This document shows, in pieces, positions 4,955 to 10,372 of a stretch of DNA of 12,042 nucleotides. A program made the translations under genes and the position numbers. The stretch comes from Gemmatimonadota bacterium (GTDB lineage Bacteria; Gemmatimonadota; Gemmatimonadetes; Longimicrobiales; UBA6960), in the NCBI GenBank assembly GCA_019347995.1, contig JAHWKH010000031.1, positions 1 to 12,042 on the forward strand. Direction: 5' to 3'. Numbering within the stretch: position 1 is the stretch's first letter; each line of letters starts with the position of its first letter. Below the pieces are notes generated by a model that saw only the letters and a list, made by a program, of their open reading frames with translations, had not been told where the DNA came from and did no database searches.

Positions 4955-4965
4955 GTGTCGGACAC
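4955..4965. promoter_or_regulatory. Candidate operator palindrome between padR and hemG
   Basis: GTGTC-G-GACAC is a perfect 11-bp palindrome 53 bases upstream of padR and 55 bases upstream of the divergent FAD enzyme. PadR proteins bind dyads in their own promoters, so this is the best visible candidate in the 118-base divergent gap. It is short enough to occur by chance. Confidence 0.3.
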
Positions 4966-5007
4966 CGTTGCATCCGCTGTCGATGTAAGTGACCCAGGCG
5001 GCCGGGT

Positions 5008-5013
5008 TACCTT
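5008..5013 (+). promoter_or_regulatory. Candidate -10 box giving a leaderless hemG-type mRNA
   Basis: TACCTT fits TANNNT and ends seven bases before the ATG at 5021, so transcription would start at or next to the start codon. No Shine-Dalgarno sequence precedes that ATG. This spacing is the usual sign of leaderless genes. No clear -35 element is visible. Confidence 0.35.
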
Positions 5014-5020
5014 GTGCGCC

Positions 5021-6286
5021 ATGATCGTGATCGTGGGGGGAGGCATCAGCGGGCTCGCCGTGGCGCACCACCTGGTGCGCCGGGGAACCGACGTGCGCCT
5101 CTTCGAGGCCGGTACGGAGTTCGGGGGCGTCATGCGCAGCCGCGTCGTCGAGGGCCGGGTCCTGGACCTGGGACCGCAGCGGACGCGCCTGACCTCCGAC
5201 GTGCGCGAGCTCGTGGAGGGAGCCGGCCTGGGCGATCGCTTGATGCGCGCCCGGGGCGACCTTCCCCTCTTCGTGTACCGCAGGGGCCGCCTCCGCCGCG
5301 CCCCCCTGTCCCTGGGCGCGGCCGTCACCACGGACCTCTTCGGCTGGGGCGCCAAGCTGCGCGCCCTCGTGGAGCCGCTCACGGGCGGTCCCCGCGAAGG
5401 CGAGAGCGTGGAGGCCTTCTTCGTCCGCAAGTTCGGGCGCGAGGTGTACGAGGCGCTCCTCGGGCCGCTCTATGGGGGCCTCTACGCCTCGGATCCCGCC
5501 CGCATGAAGGTCGGCCACGGCCTCGCCCGCACCCTCCGGGAGATGGGGGCGGAGGAAGGCAGCCTGCTGCTGCGTCTGGCGCGGCGCGGCGCGGCGGCCC
5601 GGCGCGCGGTCGAGGCCATCTCCTTCGAGGCGGGGATGGGCGCGCTGCCGGCGGCGCTGGCGCGGAGGCTGGGGGACCGCGCCCGCGCGGCGAGCCCCGT
5701 CACGGCCCGGGAGCCGGCGGCCGCCGGAGGATGGGAGGTGACGGCGGGCGGCGAGGCCGTCCGGGCCCGGGCAGTGGTGCTCGCGGCGCCGGCCGACGCC
5801 GTCGCGGCCATCCTCCCCCCGTCGGCCCGCAACGCGTCGCGGCGGCTCGCGTCGCTGCGCTACAACCCCCTCGCGGTCGTCCACCTCCATGCCGACGCCT
5901 CCGGGCTCGAGGGCTTCGGATACCAGGTGGCCTTCGGAGAGAGCCTGGAGACCCGGGGCGTCACCTGGAACGCGAGCATCTTCGGCCGGGACGGCGTGTT
6001 CACCGCCTACCTGGGGGGGATGGCGAACCCCGGCATCGTGGAGGAGGACGACGAGCGGCTGGGGCGCCTGGCGGCCGCGGAGTTCGAGACGGTCACGGGC
6101 CGACCGGCGCGGCCCCTGCTCGTCAGCCGCCTGCGCCAGCCCGCCTGGGACGCCACCTGGGACGCCCTGGACGGGCTGGATCTGCCGCCGGACCTCCACC
6201 CGTGCGCGGCCTGGTACGCCCGACCGGGGGTGCCGGGGCGGGCGAAGGACGCGCGGGCGCTCGCGGCGCGGCTGGCGGGGGGCTGA
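5021..6286 (+). CDS. hemG: Protoporphyrinogen oxidase family FAD-dependent oxidase (HemG/HemY type), 421 aa
   Basis: This FAD enzyme oxidises the porphyrinogen ring late in haem synthesis, protoporphyrinogen IX to protoporphyrin IX or coproporphyrinogen III to coproporphyrin III. The N-terminus is a Rossmann dinucleotide motif, VGGGISGLAVAHHL (5-18), ending at Glu29 of LFEAG, followed by the flavin-monooxygenase-like GGVMRSRVVEGRVLDLGPQR. The segment FVRKFGREVYEALLGPLYGG is typical of the substrate domain in this family. The C-terminus carries YARPGVPGRAKDAR in place of the usual GVPDCI-type loop, as in some divergent members. At 421 residues it is slightly short. The ATG at 5021 begins the Rossmann strand directly. 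It is divergent from padR and has hemE and hemH on the other strand 1.3 kb away, which supports a haem role. It could be a related amine-oxidase-type FAD protein, but context favours haem. Confidence 0.87.
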   Translation: MIVIVGGGISGLAVAHHLVRRGTDVRLFEAGTEFGGVMRSRVVEGRVLDLGPQRTRLTSDVRELVEGAGLGDRLMRARGDLPLFVYRRGRLRRAPLSLGAAVTTDLFGWGAKLRALVEPLTGGPREGESVEAFFVRKFGREVYEALLGPLYGGLYASDPARMKVGHGLARTLREMGAEEGSLLLRLARRGAAARRAVEAISFEAGMGALPAALARRLGDRARAASPVTAREPAAAGGWEVTAGGEAVRARAVVLAAPADAVAAILPPSARNASRRLASLRYNPLAVVHLHADASGLEGFGYQVAFGESLETRGVTWNASIFGRDGVFTAYLGGMANPGIVEEDDERLGRLAAAEFETVTGRPARPLLVSRLRQPAWDATWDALDGLDLPPDLHPCAAWYARPGVPGRAKDARALAARLAGG

Positions 6287-6317
6287 CCCGCGTGCCACCT
6301 CGATCCGGGATTGCCCC

Positions 6318-6349
6318 GGGTCCGGGTTGGTCAGGCGATCCGGGGACCC
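6318..6349 (+). terminator. Weak hairpin after hemG
   Basis: GGGTCCGG (6318-6325) can pair with CC (6340-6341) and GGACCC (6344-6349), with a two-base bulge. It lies about 30 bases after the hemG stop and lacks a T-tract. The other bases of this 163-base gap hold no gene. Confidence 0.3.
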
Positions 6350-6445
6350 CAGATTACCCTGCCGGCGGCGCGTCGGGCCAGGTCCGGTGCCGCGCCACGA
6401 TGACCGCGGCCGCGCCGCGCTCGCGGATTCCCTTCTCCTCCCAGC

Positions 6446-6451
6446 TACGGT
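6446..6451 (+). promoter_or_regulatory. Candidate -10 box upstream of the permuted oxidase
   Basis: TACGGT fits TANNNT and ends six bases before a TTG at 6458, the same geometry as in front of the hemG-type gene. It overlaps the in-frame GTG at 6450. If this promoter is real, translation cannot begin at that GTG. Another TANNNT match, TACCCT, lies at 6355-6360. Confidence 0.25.
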
Positions 6452-7592
6452 GAAGCCTTGGACCGCCGCACGCTCCTCCGCCGCCGCCGCCGGCTCCGCC
6501 CTGGGCGGCTGCGCGGGCCGCGCCCCCGGCTCGGGCACGCTCCCGCCCGCGCGCGGCCTGCCGCCCCGCCATCGCCTCATACCCGTGGACGCGTCCTTCG
6601 ACCGCATCGTGCGCACGGTGGTGGGCCTGCGTCCCTACCGTCCGTCGGGCTTCGTGGTGCGTGCCGAGCCCATGGGGGGCAAGCTCGTGGTCCACAACTA
6701 CGGCCACGGCGGCGGCGGGATCAGCCTCTCCTGGGGCTCCTCGCACCTGGCGGTGGAGGAGGTGCTCGCCAGCGAGCACCGGGAGGTGGCGGTGGTCGGG
6801 GCGGGCGTCATGGGGCTCACCACGGCGCGCCTGCTCCAGCGCGCCGGGCGGCGCGTCACGATCTACGCGCGCGACCTGCCGCCGAGCACCACGTCCAACG
6901 TCGCGGGGGGGCAGTGGACACCCTTCTCCGTGTTCGATCCCGACGCGGTCACGCCGACCTTCCGGGCGCGCTTCGACCGGGCGGCCCGCCTGGCGCACCG
7001 CCACTTCCAGGACTTCCTGGGCCGCGGCTACGGCGTCTCGTTCGCGGACAACTGGTACCTCTCCGACGCGCCGGTGCGGCTGGGCTCCCTCATCACGGAG
7101 CTGCCCGACCTCTTCCACGACGTGGAGGAGGCCGTCCCGTTCGAGGAGCATCCCTTCCCCAGCCGCCACGCCGCGCGCGTCACCACCATGATGGTCGAGC
7201 CGGGGGCCTTCCTGGCGGCCACCGAGCGCGACGTGCGGCGCGCCGGCGGCGTGGTGGTCGTGCGCGCCTTCCGGGACGCCGCCGACCTGCTGAGCGTGCC
7301 GGAGCGCGTCATCGTCAACTGCACCGGCCTCGGCGCCCGGGAGCTGTTCGGCGACGAGGAGCTCGTGCCCGTCAAGGGACAGCTCACGGTGCTCGTTCCC
7401 CAGGCGGAGGTGGACTACCTGGTGCTGCGCGGAGGCGCGTACATGTTTCCGCGCAGCGACGGGATCCTGCTGGGCGGCACGTTCGAGCGGGGGGAGTGGA
7501 GCCTGGAGCCCGACGCGGACGCGCTGCGCCGCATCGTCGCCGACCACGTGGGCTTCTTCGACGCGATGGGGGCGCGGCTGCGGGGCGCCTGA
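6450..7592 (+). CDS. Circularly permuted D-amino-acid oxidase family FAD oxidoreductase, exported or lipoprotein
   Basis: This is a flavoprotein of the D-amino-acid oxidase (DAO) family, expected to oxidise an amino or imino acid. Numbered from GTG 6450, the order is unusual. VVGLRPYRP (57-65, with the arginine that normally binds the substrate carboxylate) and the DAO signature VVHNYGHGGGG (80-90) come first. The Rossmann motif VVGAGVMGLTTARLL (115-129), TTSNVAGGQW (147-156), NCTG (290-293) and AYMFPRSDG with Tyr331, then GGTFERGEW, follow. In ordinary DAO proteins the first two segments are at the C-terminus. Residues 1-21 read as a signal with lipobox LGGC. A TTG at 6458 in another frame reads LDRRTLLR, a classic twin-arginine start, so a one-base indel may split the signal. 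GTG 6450 has no Shine-Dalgarno. No stop or frameshift breaks the catalytic part. The gene sits among haem genes and converges on hemH. Confidence 0.85.
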   Translation: MKPWTAARSSAAAAGSALGGCAGRAPGSGTLPPARGLPPRHRLIPVDASFDRIVRTVVGLRPYRPSGFVVRAEPMGGKLVVHNYGHGGGGISLSWGSSHLAVEEVLASEHREVAVVGAGVMGLTTARLLQRAGRRVTIYARDLPPSTTSNVAGGQWTPFSVFDPDAVTPTFRARFDRAARLAHRHFQDFLGRGYGVSFADNWYLSDAPVRLGSLITELPDLFHDVEEAVPFEEHPFPSRHAARVTTMMVEPGAFLAATERDVRRAGGVVVVRAFRDAADLLSVPERVIVNCTGLGARELFGDEELVPVKGQLTVLVPQAEVDYLVLRGGAYMFPRSDGILLGGTFERGEWSLEPDADALRRIVADHVGFFDAMGARLRGA

Positions 7593-7614
7593 GGCCCCGC
7601 TCCACCGCCGGGGC
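7580..7614. terminator. Overlapping alternative hairpins between convergent genes
   Basis: GCCCCG (7594-7599) can pair downstream with CGGGGC (7609-7614). As GCCCCGC (7594-7600) it can instead pair upstream with GCGGGGC (7580-7586). The two stems are mutually exclusive. They lie in the 27 bases between the oxidase stop and the hemH stop, reaching into the end of the oxidase gene, so they could terminate transcription from both sides. No T-tract is present. Confidence 0.45.
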
Positions 7615-7619
7615 TGCGG

Positions 7620-8690
7620 CTACTCCACGCCCACGGGCTGCGACAGCCGGAGCCCGTTGGTGCAGCGGGCGTGGCCGCCCGCCCGGCACAGGCAGCGCCG
7701 CAGCGAGAGGCTCTGCGTCCCGCTCCCGTCGCCGAGCCGCGCTTCCACCAGGTCGGCCAGGATCCGTGTGAAGCGCGGGCTGTCGTGGGGCACCGGGACC
7801 CGGTGGAACGCGAGGCCCGCGTCCTCGGCGACCTCCCGCAGCTCGCCGTCCAGCTCGGCCAGGGTCTCGGACTGCTCGTGCATGAAGCTCACCGCCACCA
7901 CCACGACCCGCTCCGCCTCCAGCGCGCGCACCACGTCGTCCACGTCCGGGGCGGTCCACTCGATGGGGCGGTTGGTGTGGTTCTGATAGCCCATCCAGTA
8001 GCGCGCCACCCCGAGCCGCGCCGCGATGGCGGCGCACGTCTCGTCGACGTAGCGGTCGTAGCGGTTGCCCTCTTCCAGGTACCGGATGGGGGTGCCGTGG
8101 ATGGAGAACAGGAGCGCGGTGGAGGCCTCCCGCAGCTCCGCGCCCCGGGCGCGGCAGAAGGTGGCCGTGTGCTCCGCGTGGAAGGCGGCGTAGTCGGGGT
8201 GGGCGTGCCAGCCGCCGATCTCCAGGAGCTCGGCCCCGGCCCCTGCGGCCTCCAGCGCACGGCTCGTCTCGGCGAGGGCGGCCACCGTGGTGGAATGGCC
8301 GCACAGCGGATAGACCGGCAACGCCACGAGCCGCTCGCAGCCGTCGTCCAGGGCCCGCCGCACCACGTCCTCGACCAGCGGCTCGAGGAACTGGTATCCG
8401 GCGTAGCAGACGGCGTCGTGGCCGCGGCTCCGCAGCTCCTCCCCGAGACGCTCGGCCTGGCCACGGGCCTGGCCGTTCAAGGGCGAGCCGCCGATCGCCC
8501 GGTATTCCTCCACCAGGGCGTCCACGCGGTCCTCGGCGAGCTGCCGGCTGCGGGCGCGCCGGGCCTCCTCCGACGCCGCGCCCTCCAGGCGGGCGTTGGT
8601 GAAGAAGATGCGCTCGAGGAAGGGCAGCACCTCCTCCCGTGTCGCGTTCTCCGGCTCCCCGAAATTGAGGACCAGCACGCCGGTCTTCAC
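7620..8690 (-). CDS. hemH: Ferrochelatase, 356 aa, with cysteine-bearing C-terminal tail
   Basis: This enzyme inserts Fe(II) into the porphyrin, the metallation step of haem synthesis. Family marks are the N-terminal GVLVLNFGEPEN, IGGSPLNGQARGQ (67-79), LVALPVYPLCGHST (121-134), the catalytic His198 in LLFSIHGTPIRYLEEGNRY, YWMGYQNHTNRP (231-242), and the metal-side Glu275 in HEQSETLAELD. A tail after about residue 320 carries Cys333, Cys335 and Cys343. With Cys130 these resemble the cysteine ligands of bacterial [2Fe-2S] ferrochelatases. The GTG start overlaps the end of hemE by 4 nt (GTGA), with GGAG seven bases upstream, so it is translationally coupled. The product may be protoporphyrin- or coproporphyrin-specific; sequence alone does not decide this. 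Confidence 0.96.
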   Translation of the reverse strand: MKTGVLVLNFGEPENATREEVLPFLERIFFTNARLEGAASEEARRARSRQLAEDRVDALVEEYRAIGGSPLNGQARGQAERLGEELRSRGHDAVCYAGYQFLEPLVEDVVRRALDDGCERLVALPVYPLCGHSTTVAALAETSRALEAAGAGAELLEIGGWHAHPDYAAFHAEHTATFCRARGAELREASTALLFSIHGTPIRYLEEGNRYDRYVDETCAAIAARLGVARYWMGYQNHTNRPIEWTAPDVDDVVRALEAERVVVVAVSFMHEQSETLAELDGELREVAEDAGLAFHRVPVPHDSPRFTRILADLVEARLGDGSGTQSLSLRRCLCRAGGHARCTNGLRLSQPVGVE

Positions 8691-9772
8691 GAGAGGGCTC
8701 CGCGGCCCGCCGACGACACCCCGGCACCGGGAGGGGCGTCCGCGCCGGAGGGGGCGGCCGCGTGCACGGCCTCCACCACGGCCGCCAGCACGCGATGGTC
8801 GGTCTCCGGCAGGATGCCATGGCCCAGGTTGAAGATGTGCCCGGGACGGCCGCCGGCCCGCTCCAGCACGTCCCGCGCCCCGGCCACGGCCACGTCCTCG
8901 CCCGCCAGCAGCGCCACCGGATCCAGGTTGCCCTGGATGGCGCGCCCGTGTCCGATGCGTGTCCAGGCCTCGTCGAGGGGGAGCAGGTGGTCGACGCTCA
9001 CCGCGTCGCCGCCCGCCTCCGCCACCGACTCCAGCAGGGCCGGGTTGCCGCCGAAGTAGTGGATGGAGGGGATCCCGGCCTCCTCCAGGCGCCGGAAGAG
9101 GCGCCGTGAGTACGGCATCACGTGGGCGCGGTAGTCCTGTACCGACAGCGTCCCCGCCCAGGAATCGAAGACCTGGACGGCCGCGGCGCCGGCCTCGTGC
9201 TGCGCCACGCCGAAGTCGGCCAGGTGGTCGGCCCAGTAGGTCGCGAGCCCGTCCCACGCCGCGGGCTGCTCCCAGATGAAGGTCTTCAGCTCCCGCAGAT
9301 CCCTGGAGCGGGGGCCCTTCACCAGGTAGGAGCACAGCGTGAACGGCGCACCCACGAAGCCCAGCACCGGCACGTCGAGGCGCTCCACCAGGATGCGGAT
9401 GGCGTCCAGGTTGTAGTCCAGCGCCTCGCGGGGGTCGAAGGGACGCAGCGCCCCGACGTCGGCGGCGGAGCGCACCGGCCGGTCCACCACCGGACCCACG
9501 CCCTTGCGCAGCTCCACCTCGAGCCCCGCGGCGAAGAACGGTGTCGCCAGGTCGTTGTAGAGGACGGCGGCGTCCACCGGGAAGTAGTCCAGGGGCAGCG
9601 CGGTGATCTCCGCCGCCGCCTCGGGGTCGCGCAGGAGGTCGAAGAAGGCCTGATCGGCCCGCAGCTCCCGGTAGCGCGGCAGGCACCGCCCGGCCTGGCG
9701 CATGAACCAGATCGGCGTGCGGTCCACGGGCTCCCGGCGCAGGGCCCGGAGGATACGATCGTTGAAGCTCAC
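8687..9772 (-). CDS. hemE: Uroporphyrinogen decarboxylase, 361 aa
   Basis: This cytoplasmic enzyme removes four acetate carboxyls from uroporphyrinogen III to give coproporphyrinogen III. Both family signatures are present: PIWFMRQAGRCLPRYRELR (20-38), with the substrate-binding Arg25 and Arg29, and LGFVGAPFTLCSYLVKG (137-153), with Tyr149. The catalytic Asp74 lies in LYNDLATPF, Ser204 in FDSWAG and His318 in FNLGHGILPETD. A 20-residue tail rich in Ala, Gly and Pro follows the fold and is probably disordered. The GTG at 9772 was chosen because the fold begins there (SFNDRILRALRREPVDRTP). A weak AAGG lies six bases upstream. It is first in an operon with hemH, and a dyad lies 42 bases upstream. 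Confidence 0.97.
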   Translation of the reverse strand: MSFNDRILRALRREPVDRTPIWFMRQAGRCLPRYRELRADQAFFDLLRDPEAAAEITALPLDYFPVDAAVLYNDLATPFFAAGLEVELRKGVGPVVDRPVRSAADVGALRPFDPREALDYNLDAIRILVERLDVPVLGFVGAPFTLCSYLVKGPRSRDLRELKTFIWEQPAAWDGLATYWADHLADFGVAQHEAGAAAVQVFDSWAGTLSVQDYRAHVMPYSRRLFRRLEEAGIPSIHYFGGNPALLESVAEAGGDAVSVDHLLPLDEAWTRIGHGRAIQGNLDPVALLAGEDVAVAGARDVLERAGGRPGHIFNLGHGILPETDHRVLAAVVEAVHAAAPSGADAPPGAGVSSAGRGALS

Positions 9773-9813
9773 GGAGGGCCTTGGCGGTCGATGAGGTGGG
9801 GCCGGCGGAGTCG

Positions 9814-9829
9814 CGGCCTGTATAGGCCG
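9814..9829 (-). promoter_or_regulatory. Dyad over a candidate hemE -10 region
   Basis: CGGCCT (9814-9819) and AGGCCG (9824-9829) form a 6-bp inverted repeat around GTAT. On the minus strand TATACA (9824-9819) lies inside it and could be the hemE -10 box, giving a leader of roughly 40 bases. No good -35 is visible. The dyad could be an operator, but no regulator can be named. Confidence 0.3.
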
Positions 9830-9901
9830 ACGCGACGGATCAGGTTCCCGGCGCGACGGGGAACGGGGGTGGCGCGACGTGCCGTCCCGACCGAAACTCC
9901 G

Positions 9902-9933
9902 TAAGGTTCGTTGACCCGTGAAATTCCGAGGAG
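9902..9933 (+). promoter_or_regulatory. Candidate -10 box and ribosome binding site of the response regulator
   Basis: TAAGGT (9902-9907) fits TANNNT. GAGGAG (9928-9933) lies seven bases before the GTG at 9941 and decides that start over the in-frame TTG at 9911. The ribosome binding site is convincing; the -10 box is only a candidate. Confidence 0.5.
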
Positions 9934-9940
9934 TCAGCCC

Positions 9941-10372
9941 GTGCGCCTGTGGCCCCGCCGCCGCTCCGCCGCAGGTCCCGTCCGCGTCATGGTGGTGGAC
10001 GACGACGACGCGCTGCGGCTGTCCGTGGCCCGGGTGCTGCGCCGCGCCGGATACGGGGTGGAGGAGACGGACGACCCGCGCCTGGCGCTGGAGCGGCTCC
10101 GGAGGGACGACCCTCCTCACGTGGTGGTGTGTGACGTGGTGATGCCCCTCATGAACGGCATCCTGTTCGGCCAGCGCGTGCGGGAGCTCGGCGTGGACGT
10201 GCCCATCGTCTACATGTCCGGGCTGGCCGAGGAGAGCGCGCTCCGCGACTGGGGCATCCCCGCGTCCATCCCGTTCCTCGCGAAGCCGTTCGAGCCCGCC
10301 GAGCTCCTGGCCGTGGTGGAGGGGATCGTGGACCGGTCGGACGCGGGTGAGCGCGCCGGCGGCGAGCCCTGA
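9941..10372 (+). CDS. Single-domain response regulator (REC), 143 aa
   Basis: This is a phosphoacceptor receiver protein with no output domain, of the CheY/DivK type. After a basic leader (RLWPRRRS) the REC fold runs from about residue 14 to 130. Visible are the acidic pair Asp20/Asp21 in MVVDDDDALR, the phosphorylated Asp65 in VVVCDVVMPLMNG, Ser93 of YMSGLAEES in the Thr/Ser switch position, and Lys115 in FLAKPFEPAEL. No histidine kinase is in the window, so the partner is elsewhere. It is divergent from hemE across 168 bases and is followed on the same strand by the M14 peptidase after 101 bases. It could act by protein-protein contact, or as an intermediate in a phosphorelay. Confidence 0.93.
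   Translation: MRLWPRRRSAAGPVRVMVVDDDDALRLSVARVLRRAGYGVEETDDPRLALERLRRDDPPHVVVCDVVMPLMNGILFGQRVRELGVDVPIVYMSGLAEESALRDWGIPASIPFLAKPFEPAELLAVVEGIVDRSDAGERAGGEP

Follow-up and report, generated by a model that had tools for sequence, protein, structure and literature searches.

D-amino-acid oxidase (DAAO) and DASPO are textbook flavoenzymes. An excerpt of a published article (PMC9844085) describes GxRPxR and YGHGGxG as motifs shared by bacterial DAAOs, notes that the active-site tyrosine of DAAO is not strictly conserved, and gives a DAAO search rule in which the FAD fingerprint must be N-terminal. In human DASPO (6rkf), the GLRPYRP...YGHG segment lies at 280-331, after the core, and canonical bacterial DAAOs (a Streptomyces protein, P0280, and two Gemmatimonadota loci, L089 and L090) carry the same motifs, again with the segment C-terminal. 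By contrast, the segment comes first in the protein described here, which is encoded in a 12,042-nucleotide stretch of Gemmatimonadota DNA (called the window below). Glycine oxidase ThiO (TIGR02352) and D-amino-acid dehydrogenase (NF001933) have the superfamily fold in common with the window protein, which scored 65.2 against the ThiO cut-off of 250.8 and 30.4 against the dehydrogenase cut-off of 383, the best stretch in the latter case being the Rossmann start.

The permuted form is not covered by the PDB matches at E <= 0.001, the listed NCBIfam families or the open-licence literature searched: the 19 distinct PDB sequences at that threshold include none whose best stretch joins the segment to the core, none of the 25 listed families (of 86) reached its cut-off with the window protein, and no description of a permuted DAAO/DASPO form was found in that literature. 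The best NCBIfam E-value for the other 65 members of our alignment was 5.8e-20, to ThiO.

Motif order in the window protein

Positions 6450-7592 of the forward strand translate as a single open frame of 380 residues, with the following features.

6450..7592, + strand: called ORF for a permuted DAO-family flavoprotein, 380 residues, stop codon included (translation and Pfam)
6603..6767, + strand: moved segment of three strands and a helix, residues 52-106, corresponding to the C-terminus of canonical DAAO/DASPO (DASPO match, rotation, models)
6624..6644, + strand: GLRPYRP, residues 59-65 (Arg61 in 100% of each permuted group and of 29 canonical rows)
6693..6713, + strand: HNYGHGG, residues 82-88 (motif conservation among homologues)
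6768..6782, + strand: junction of the old C-terminal helix with the first Rossmann strand, residues 107-111 (model and motif spacing)
6783..7544, + strand: FAD-binding and substrate-binding core in canonical order, residues 112-365 (Pfam, fold match, profile)
6798..6815, + strand: GAGVMG FAD fingerprint, residues 117-122, N-terminal in canonical enzymes (translation, conservation)
7440..7442, + strand: Tyr331 (Tyr in 99% of the window's own group, P1a, and in 93% of 29 canonical rows)
7515..7586, + strand: new C-terminal helix, residues 356-379 (model; canonical counterpart about H241-254)

The preliminary description had placed GLRPYRP and HNYGHGG before GAGVMG, with the other DAO landmarks in their usual order, and the translation agrees with it. 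VVGLRPYRP (residues 57-65) and VVHNYGHGGGGISLSWG (80-96), the latter with the HNYGHGG loop that we take to be the flavin/substrate loop, are followed by GAGVMG, VAGGQW (151-156), NCTG (290-293), AYMFPR (330-335) and GGTFERGEW (342-350), and the chain ends at residue 380. Both GxRPxR, with the substrate-binding arginine, and YGHGGxG are thus present and conserved, as in DAAO and DASPO, and the canonical arrangement (GxGxxG N-terminal, GxRPxR/YGHGG last) is absent. Pfam DAO (PF01266) matched residues 113-364 with an E-value of 9.2e-34 (117.9 bits, gathering threshold 27.9), which places the protein in the superfamily. Human DASPO was the top match in the search against solved structures. Its alignment fell into two parts, each significant by itself, whose order is exchanged between the two proteins: residues 111-364 of the query pair with 13-265 of the solved chain, and residues 54-102 with 280-331. 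The alignments to the Rasamsonia DAAO (7ct4) and to 1an9, presumably pig DAAO, showed the identical swap. The Pfam match and the two significant, swapped DASPO stretches argue that the motif order did not come about by chance.

Circular permutation of the DAAO/DASPO fold

The front segment and the core are a circular permutation of DAAO/DASPO and not debris of an upstream gene, a reading already put forward from the sequence and upheld here by profile rotation, a fixed motif order, constant spacing, a tree and a predicted structure with a canonical control. The profile was built from 30 canonical sequences (24 bacterial loci of canonical order and 6 database proteins, likewise canonical) and had a length of 316; rows were found by motif, with 13 of 132 loci and 17 of 360 proteins unparsed and 8 outgroup loci and 2 translations set aside. 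In its natural order, the window protein gave two matches, one of 155.4 bits (profile 2-246 on residues 112-365) and one of 42.8 bits (258-309 on 52-103). After rotation, one continuous and nearly full-length match of 205.9 bits was restored (profile 2-308 of 316), and rotated versions with a shuffled segment scored 156.3-158.3 bits (20 trials). Rotation raised the score in 201 of 211 permuted sequences, the window protein included (median +59.6 bits), with no gain in the remaining 10, and over the 211 the best match covered a median of 0.97 of the profile, up from 0.79. When the segment was shuffled before rotation, the best match in the permuted set shifted by a median of 0.4 bits and by 6.4 at most.

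The breakpoints were located from motif spacings. The distance from the start of HNYGHGG to GxGxxG was 35 residues in the 211 permuted sequences (median and both quartiles; range 35-42). In 251 canonical sequences, a set that includes many close mammalian or Streptomyces relatives, the YGHGG motif lay 24-40 residues from the C-terminal end, and the distance from LGG to RPxR was 45 residues (quartiles 45-45, n=246). The permuted chains end 36 residues after the start of LGG (quartiles 34.5-40, n=197), and the loop that leads from the helix behind LGG to the GxRPxR strand is therefore where the new ends fall. The former C- and N-termini are joined through a short link, of 5 residues in the model.

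The structure prediction called for in the preliminary description was carried out with AlphaFold2. The monomer model had a pLDDT of 89.7 and a pTM of 0.86, with ten-residue blocks of residues 51-110 at 94-98, and residues 53-106 were modelled as strand-strand-strand-helix (E53-63, E69-75, E78-84, H87-106). The model of the canonical Streptomyces control (P0280) has the same secondary structure elements, ending in E263-273, E278-283, E289-294, H298-302 and H304-316, so that the predicted secondary structure of the moved segment is, at high confidence, that of the canonical C-terminus. A sequence-ordered fold alignment paired model residues 109-374 with DASPO residues 2-264 and left the moved segment out. 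Among the 50 rows of fold matches listed, the matched range, which records the first and last aligned residue only, started at model residue 106-112, except in four MnmC rows (29-30); these start points fit a permutant without proving the site of the segment. Sequence, secondary structure and pTM thus point indirectly to residues 50-105 occupying the position of the canonical C-terminus. The moved piece would comprise the strand with the carboxylate-binding arginine, the HNYGHGG loop and the last helix, and would fold back within its own chain, rebuilding the canonical active site. An alternative explanation is that the segment is swapped between two subunits and completes the active site of the neighbour in a dimer, since the same sequence order can come from circular permutants and from domain swaps and the model is of a monomer only. 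We consider such a swap improbable, as the monomer was modelled with confidence (pTM 0.86, blocks of the segment at 94-98) and a link of 5 residues to the first strand suits a local connection.

Conservation, distribution and origin of the permuted order

A search for homologues, also proposed in the preliminary description, found the permuted order in every close relative that was read. Of the at least 7996 candidates scored in the protein search, at least 7949 had E <= 0.001; the list covered 120, among them the protein of the window itself, and the YGHGG motif preceded NCTG in 119 of the 119 other proteins among these matches. The same order was read in 80 of 80 genome loci (the best 80 of 578 relatives). 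With human DASPO or the Streptomyces protein as the query, 119 of the 120 matches listed were canonical in each case, with one uncalled. A further 52 loci comprised 23 canonical, 19 permuted and 10 uncalled ones, and two of the uncalled (L107 and L131) have the segment last. A rival idea takes the front segment for what is left of another, degraded DAO gene upstream, its tail being in frame by accident; evidence for this had been named at the outset as one finding that would overturn a permutation. The idea draws on the frame break near the start of the called ORF (see below), a feature of decayed genes. Conservation of the order across at least five phyla, in all 119 listed proteins and all 80 loci and with a spacing of 35 residues, rules it out for practical purposes.

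The phyla with the permuted order include Gemmatimonadota, Acidobacteriota, Pseudomonadota, Verrucomicrobiota and Bacteroidota. Window-type matches were present in 31 of 150 Gemmatimonadota genomes (E <= 1e-70; one split over two contigs; 2 read canonical), 15 of 199 Acidobacteriota genomes (E <= 1e-60; 7 read canonical), 20 of 398 Pseudomonadota genomes (E <= 1e-35) and 2 of 296 Bacteroidota genomes (12 fetched loci read canonical); these counts, taken by hand from tables with the order read for only part of the matches, are rough because each sample includes its central permuted genome and scoring was confined to the best 4 to 13 candidates in each genome. Bacteroidota matches that apparently extended upstream into the segment proved to be canonical genes when read. 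The order is mostly canonical in Bacteroidota (e.g. L093-L095, L099-L101, L103-L106, L130, L132) and mostly permuted in Gemmatimonadota. One Acidobacteria genome (G005, L017) contains five near-full-length copies and one fragment.

A maximum-likelihood tree was computed from 66 rotated or canonical sequences picked for spread (37 permuted, 29 canonical), with the root unfixed. One branch separated the permuted rows from the canonical ones, including the canonical bacterial DAAOs, with a support of 100/100, and was present in 100% of 200 bootstrap trees. As the two orders split on a single branch, one permutation event suffices, and the permutation most likely arose once, in bacteria. ThiO was tried as an outgroup; its one usable sequence sat on a very long branch beside or within the permuted rows, and the resulting root was not trusted. 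The permuted order could plausibly have originated by tandem duplication followed by trimming. An intermediate with the segment at both ends was absent from the called sequences (119 + 119 + 119 proteins, 80 loci and 42 of the 52 further loci), with 2 proteins and 10 loci uncalled in this search.

For the comparisons below, 212 permuted rows (the window counted twice) were sorted by motif and name into four groups of convenience: P1a, the window's own (169); P1b, with TTVG(L/H)RP (26); P2, made up of rows with CysLRP or CysTRP and two rows added by name (12); and P3, a rhizobial and Nonomuraea type (5), of which 4 of 5 have no signal. P1b (e.g. L026, L037, L044, L046, L062) comes mainly from records of Gemmatimonadota and Acidobacteriota, and its moved segment contains TTVGLRP.

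Export signals, active site and possible function

Two elements of a possible export signal lie at the 5' end of the gene.

6458..6481, + strand: Tat motif LDRRTLLR in frame 6452/6458, shifted by one frame from the enzyme (motif and enzyme share a frame in the relative P0004)
6501..6512, + strand: LGGC at residues 18-21, lipobox-like and in frame with the enzyme (Cys21 conserved in at least 90% of 66 aligned homologues)

The lipobox-like AAAAGSALGGC and the enzyme are both in frame 6450, and the frame breaks between 6452 and 6512, in a stretch of CGC repeats beyond about 6479. In P0004, the nearest relative among the matches listed (89% identical), the Tat motif and the lipobox share one frame. 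With its Tat motif out of frame, the window copy may carry a sequence error at the 5' end or may have decayed there, and the N-terminus of the called ORF is probably not the real one; the break, seen on one contig only, may be either a sequencing error or a real lesion. The Tat-type signals of the family support the export proposed earlier, which is only partly borne out by the ORF of the window as called, its Tat motif and its enzyme being in different frames. A twin-arginine motif with an uncharged stretch was found in 76 of the 78 parsed loci among L001-L080, and 60 of the 78 had a lipobox pattern too; the two loci without it either contain unknown bases or lie at a contig edge. Among database proteins, 94 of 115 had the twin-arginine motif and 74 of 115 the lipobox, and many of the 21 without twin-arginine have short N-termini. 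The 17 other permuted loci gave 13 and 10, respectively. All these sequences were parsed from stop to stop, so that a few of the motifs counted may be located upstream of the true start (e.g. L081, annotated without one). The Tat pathway exports proteins folded and with their cofactor bound. Since most members have Tat-type signals, they would be exported folded, with FAD already bound, and many of them would become lipoproteins.

The active-site residues were compared across the groups. Arg61, presumably the counterpart of the substrate-carboxylate arginine Arg283 of pig DAAO, is invariant in the permuted groups and the 29 canonical rows, and His82, Tyr84, Gly85, His86 and Gly87 are found in 100% of every group counted. 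Position 331, which we take to correspond to the active-site Tyr228 of pig DAAO, is Tyr in all P3 rows as well as in nearly all P1a and canonical rows, is His in 76% of P1b (26 rows), and has mostly lost the Tyr in P2. Residue 327 varies among the groups. Cys replaces Gly59 in most of P2 (e.g. L086, L087, L115-L117, L120-L124, L127), the usual Tyr and LGG are absent, and position 342 (Gly342) is Gln in 91%; judged by these residues, the P2 active site is much altered, with Arg61 and YGHGG retained. As Tyr331 varies among groups, function is not uniform across the branch.

On sequence and modelling grounds, we consider it very probable that the window protein belongs to a widespread permuted DAO (PF01266) branch of bacterial flavoproteins, putative exported amino-acid oxidoreductases with a DAAO/DASPO-like C-terminus of about 55 residues placed before the Rossmann domain. 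It would oxidise D-amino acids or close analogues outside the cytoplasm and pass the electrons to O2 or another acceptor. A different reaction on the same fold, such as a glycine-oxidase-like one or the oxidation of an N-methyl amino acid or another amine instead of D-amino acids, is a less likely alternative to be taken seriously: the active-site Tyr varies among groups, residue 327 is variable and ThiO is the best NCBIfam match. However, the ThiO score is far under its cut-off, Arg61, Tyr331, GxRPxR and YGHGGxG match the DAAO/DASPO pattern, and DASPO and DAAO chains come first by sequence and by fold. The motifs alone do not decide the substrate, because some glycine oxidases also have GxRPxR and YGHGGxG, according to the excerpt cited above (PMC9844085).

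Gene neighbourhoods were examined in 82 of 88 loci (6 were not anchored) by clustering the ORFs up to 4 kb from the gene. No conserved operon partner was found, the largest neighbour cluster covering 9 of the 82 loci, and several clusters resemble opposite-strand shadow ORFs. A gene that we take to be HslU-like lies downstream in 7 loci. In the window (4955-10372), the gene is flanked upstream by an amine-oxidase-family gene (+), presumably protoporphyrinogen-oxidase-like, and on its other side by convergent ferrochelatase and uroporphyrinogen decarboxylase genes (-), followed by a response regulator; none of the amine-oxidase-family, ferrochelatase and uroporphyrinogen decarboxylase genes was prominent in the neighbour clusters of the 82 loci.

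The neighbours also bear on the electron acceptor. A permuted DAO-fold dehydrogenase that hands its electrons to an envelope quinone or cytochrome rather than to O2 would suit an exported, often lipobox-bearing protein, and an annotated cytochrome c gene directly follows the permuted, exported relative on a Kozakia baliensis plasmid (L087:2929-4589); neighbours with CxxCH also form a cluster, which lies about 2.2 kb from the gene in 5 of 82 loci. We regard this as rather unlikely, because the cluster covers few loci on mixed strands, CxxCH frames occurred in two of the 15 loci with short flanks that were parsed (2 of 17 were not), namely the Kozakia cytochrome and a non-coding-looking frame in L086, and the closest solved relatives are oxidases. 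As an adjacent partner, cytochrome c was found beside the Kozakia relative only. The broader assignment, an extracytoplasmic amino-acid oxidoreductase of DAAO/DASPO type, is the one proposed here.

Signal-less permuted relatives of rhizobia and Nonomuraea lie directly upstream of a thiamine-pyrophosphate enzyme gene in 4 loci (L081:3491-7717, L088:1363-5690, L083:2777-5639, L082:2989-5712), in two of them also after an FAD-binding oxidoreductase gene, and these neighbouring genes possibly form a small operon. On the Mesorhizobium onobrychidis plasmid, L083:2777-3840 is annotated as two adjacent FAD-dependent oxidoreductase genes, with a change of frame just past the first Rossmann glycines.

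A widespread natural permutant shows where the DAAO/DASPO fold tolerates new ends, and offers a natural scaffold for DAAO-based biosensors or biocatalysts. It would escape the N-terminal-fingerprint search rule given in the excerpt of PMC9844085. The findings also point to the oxidation of amino acids in the envelope of many soil and marine bacteria. As a tentative and rather speculative proposal, a single ancient permutation may have founded an unnamed branch of amino-acid-oxidising flavoproteins, probably with thousands of members in at least five phyla, which would mostly fold and take up FAD in the cytoplasm and then leave it through Tat as envelope lipoproteins. The permutation would have freed the Rossmann start from the chain end, so that the signal peptide and lipid anchor sit away from the FAD site, and subgroups may later have replaced the active-site Tyr and changed the reaction.
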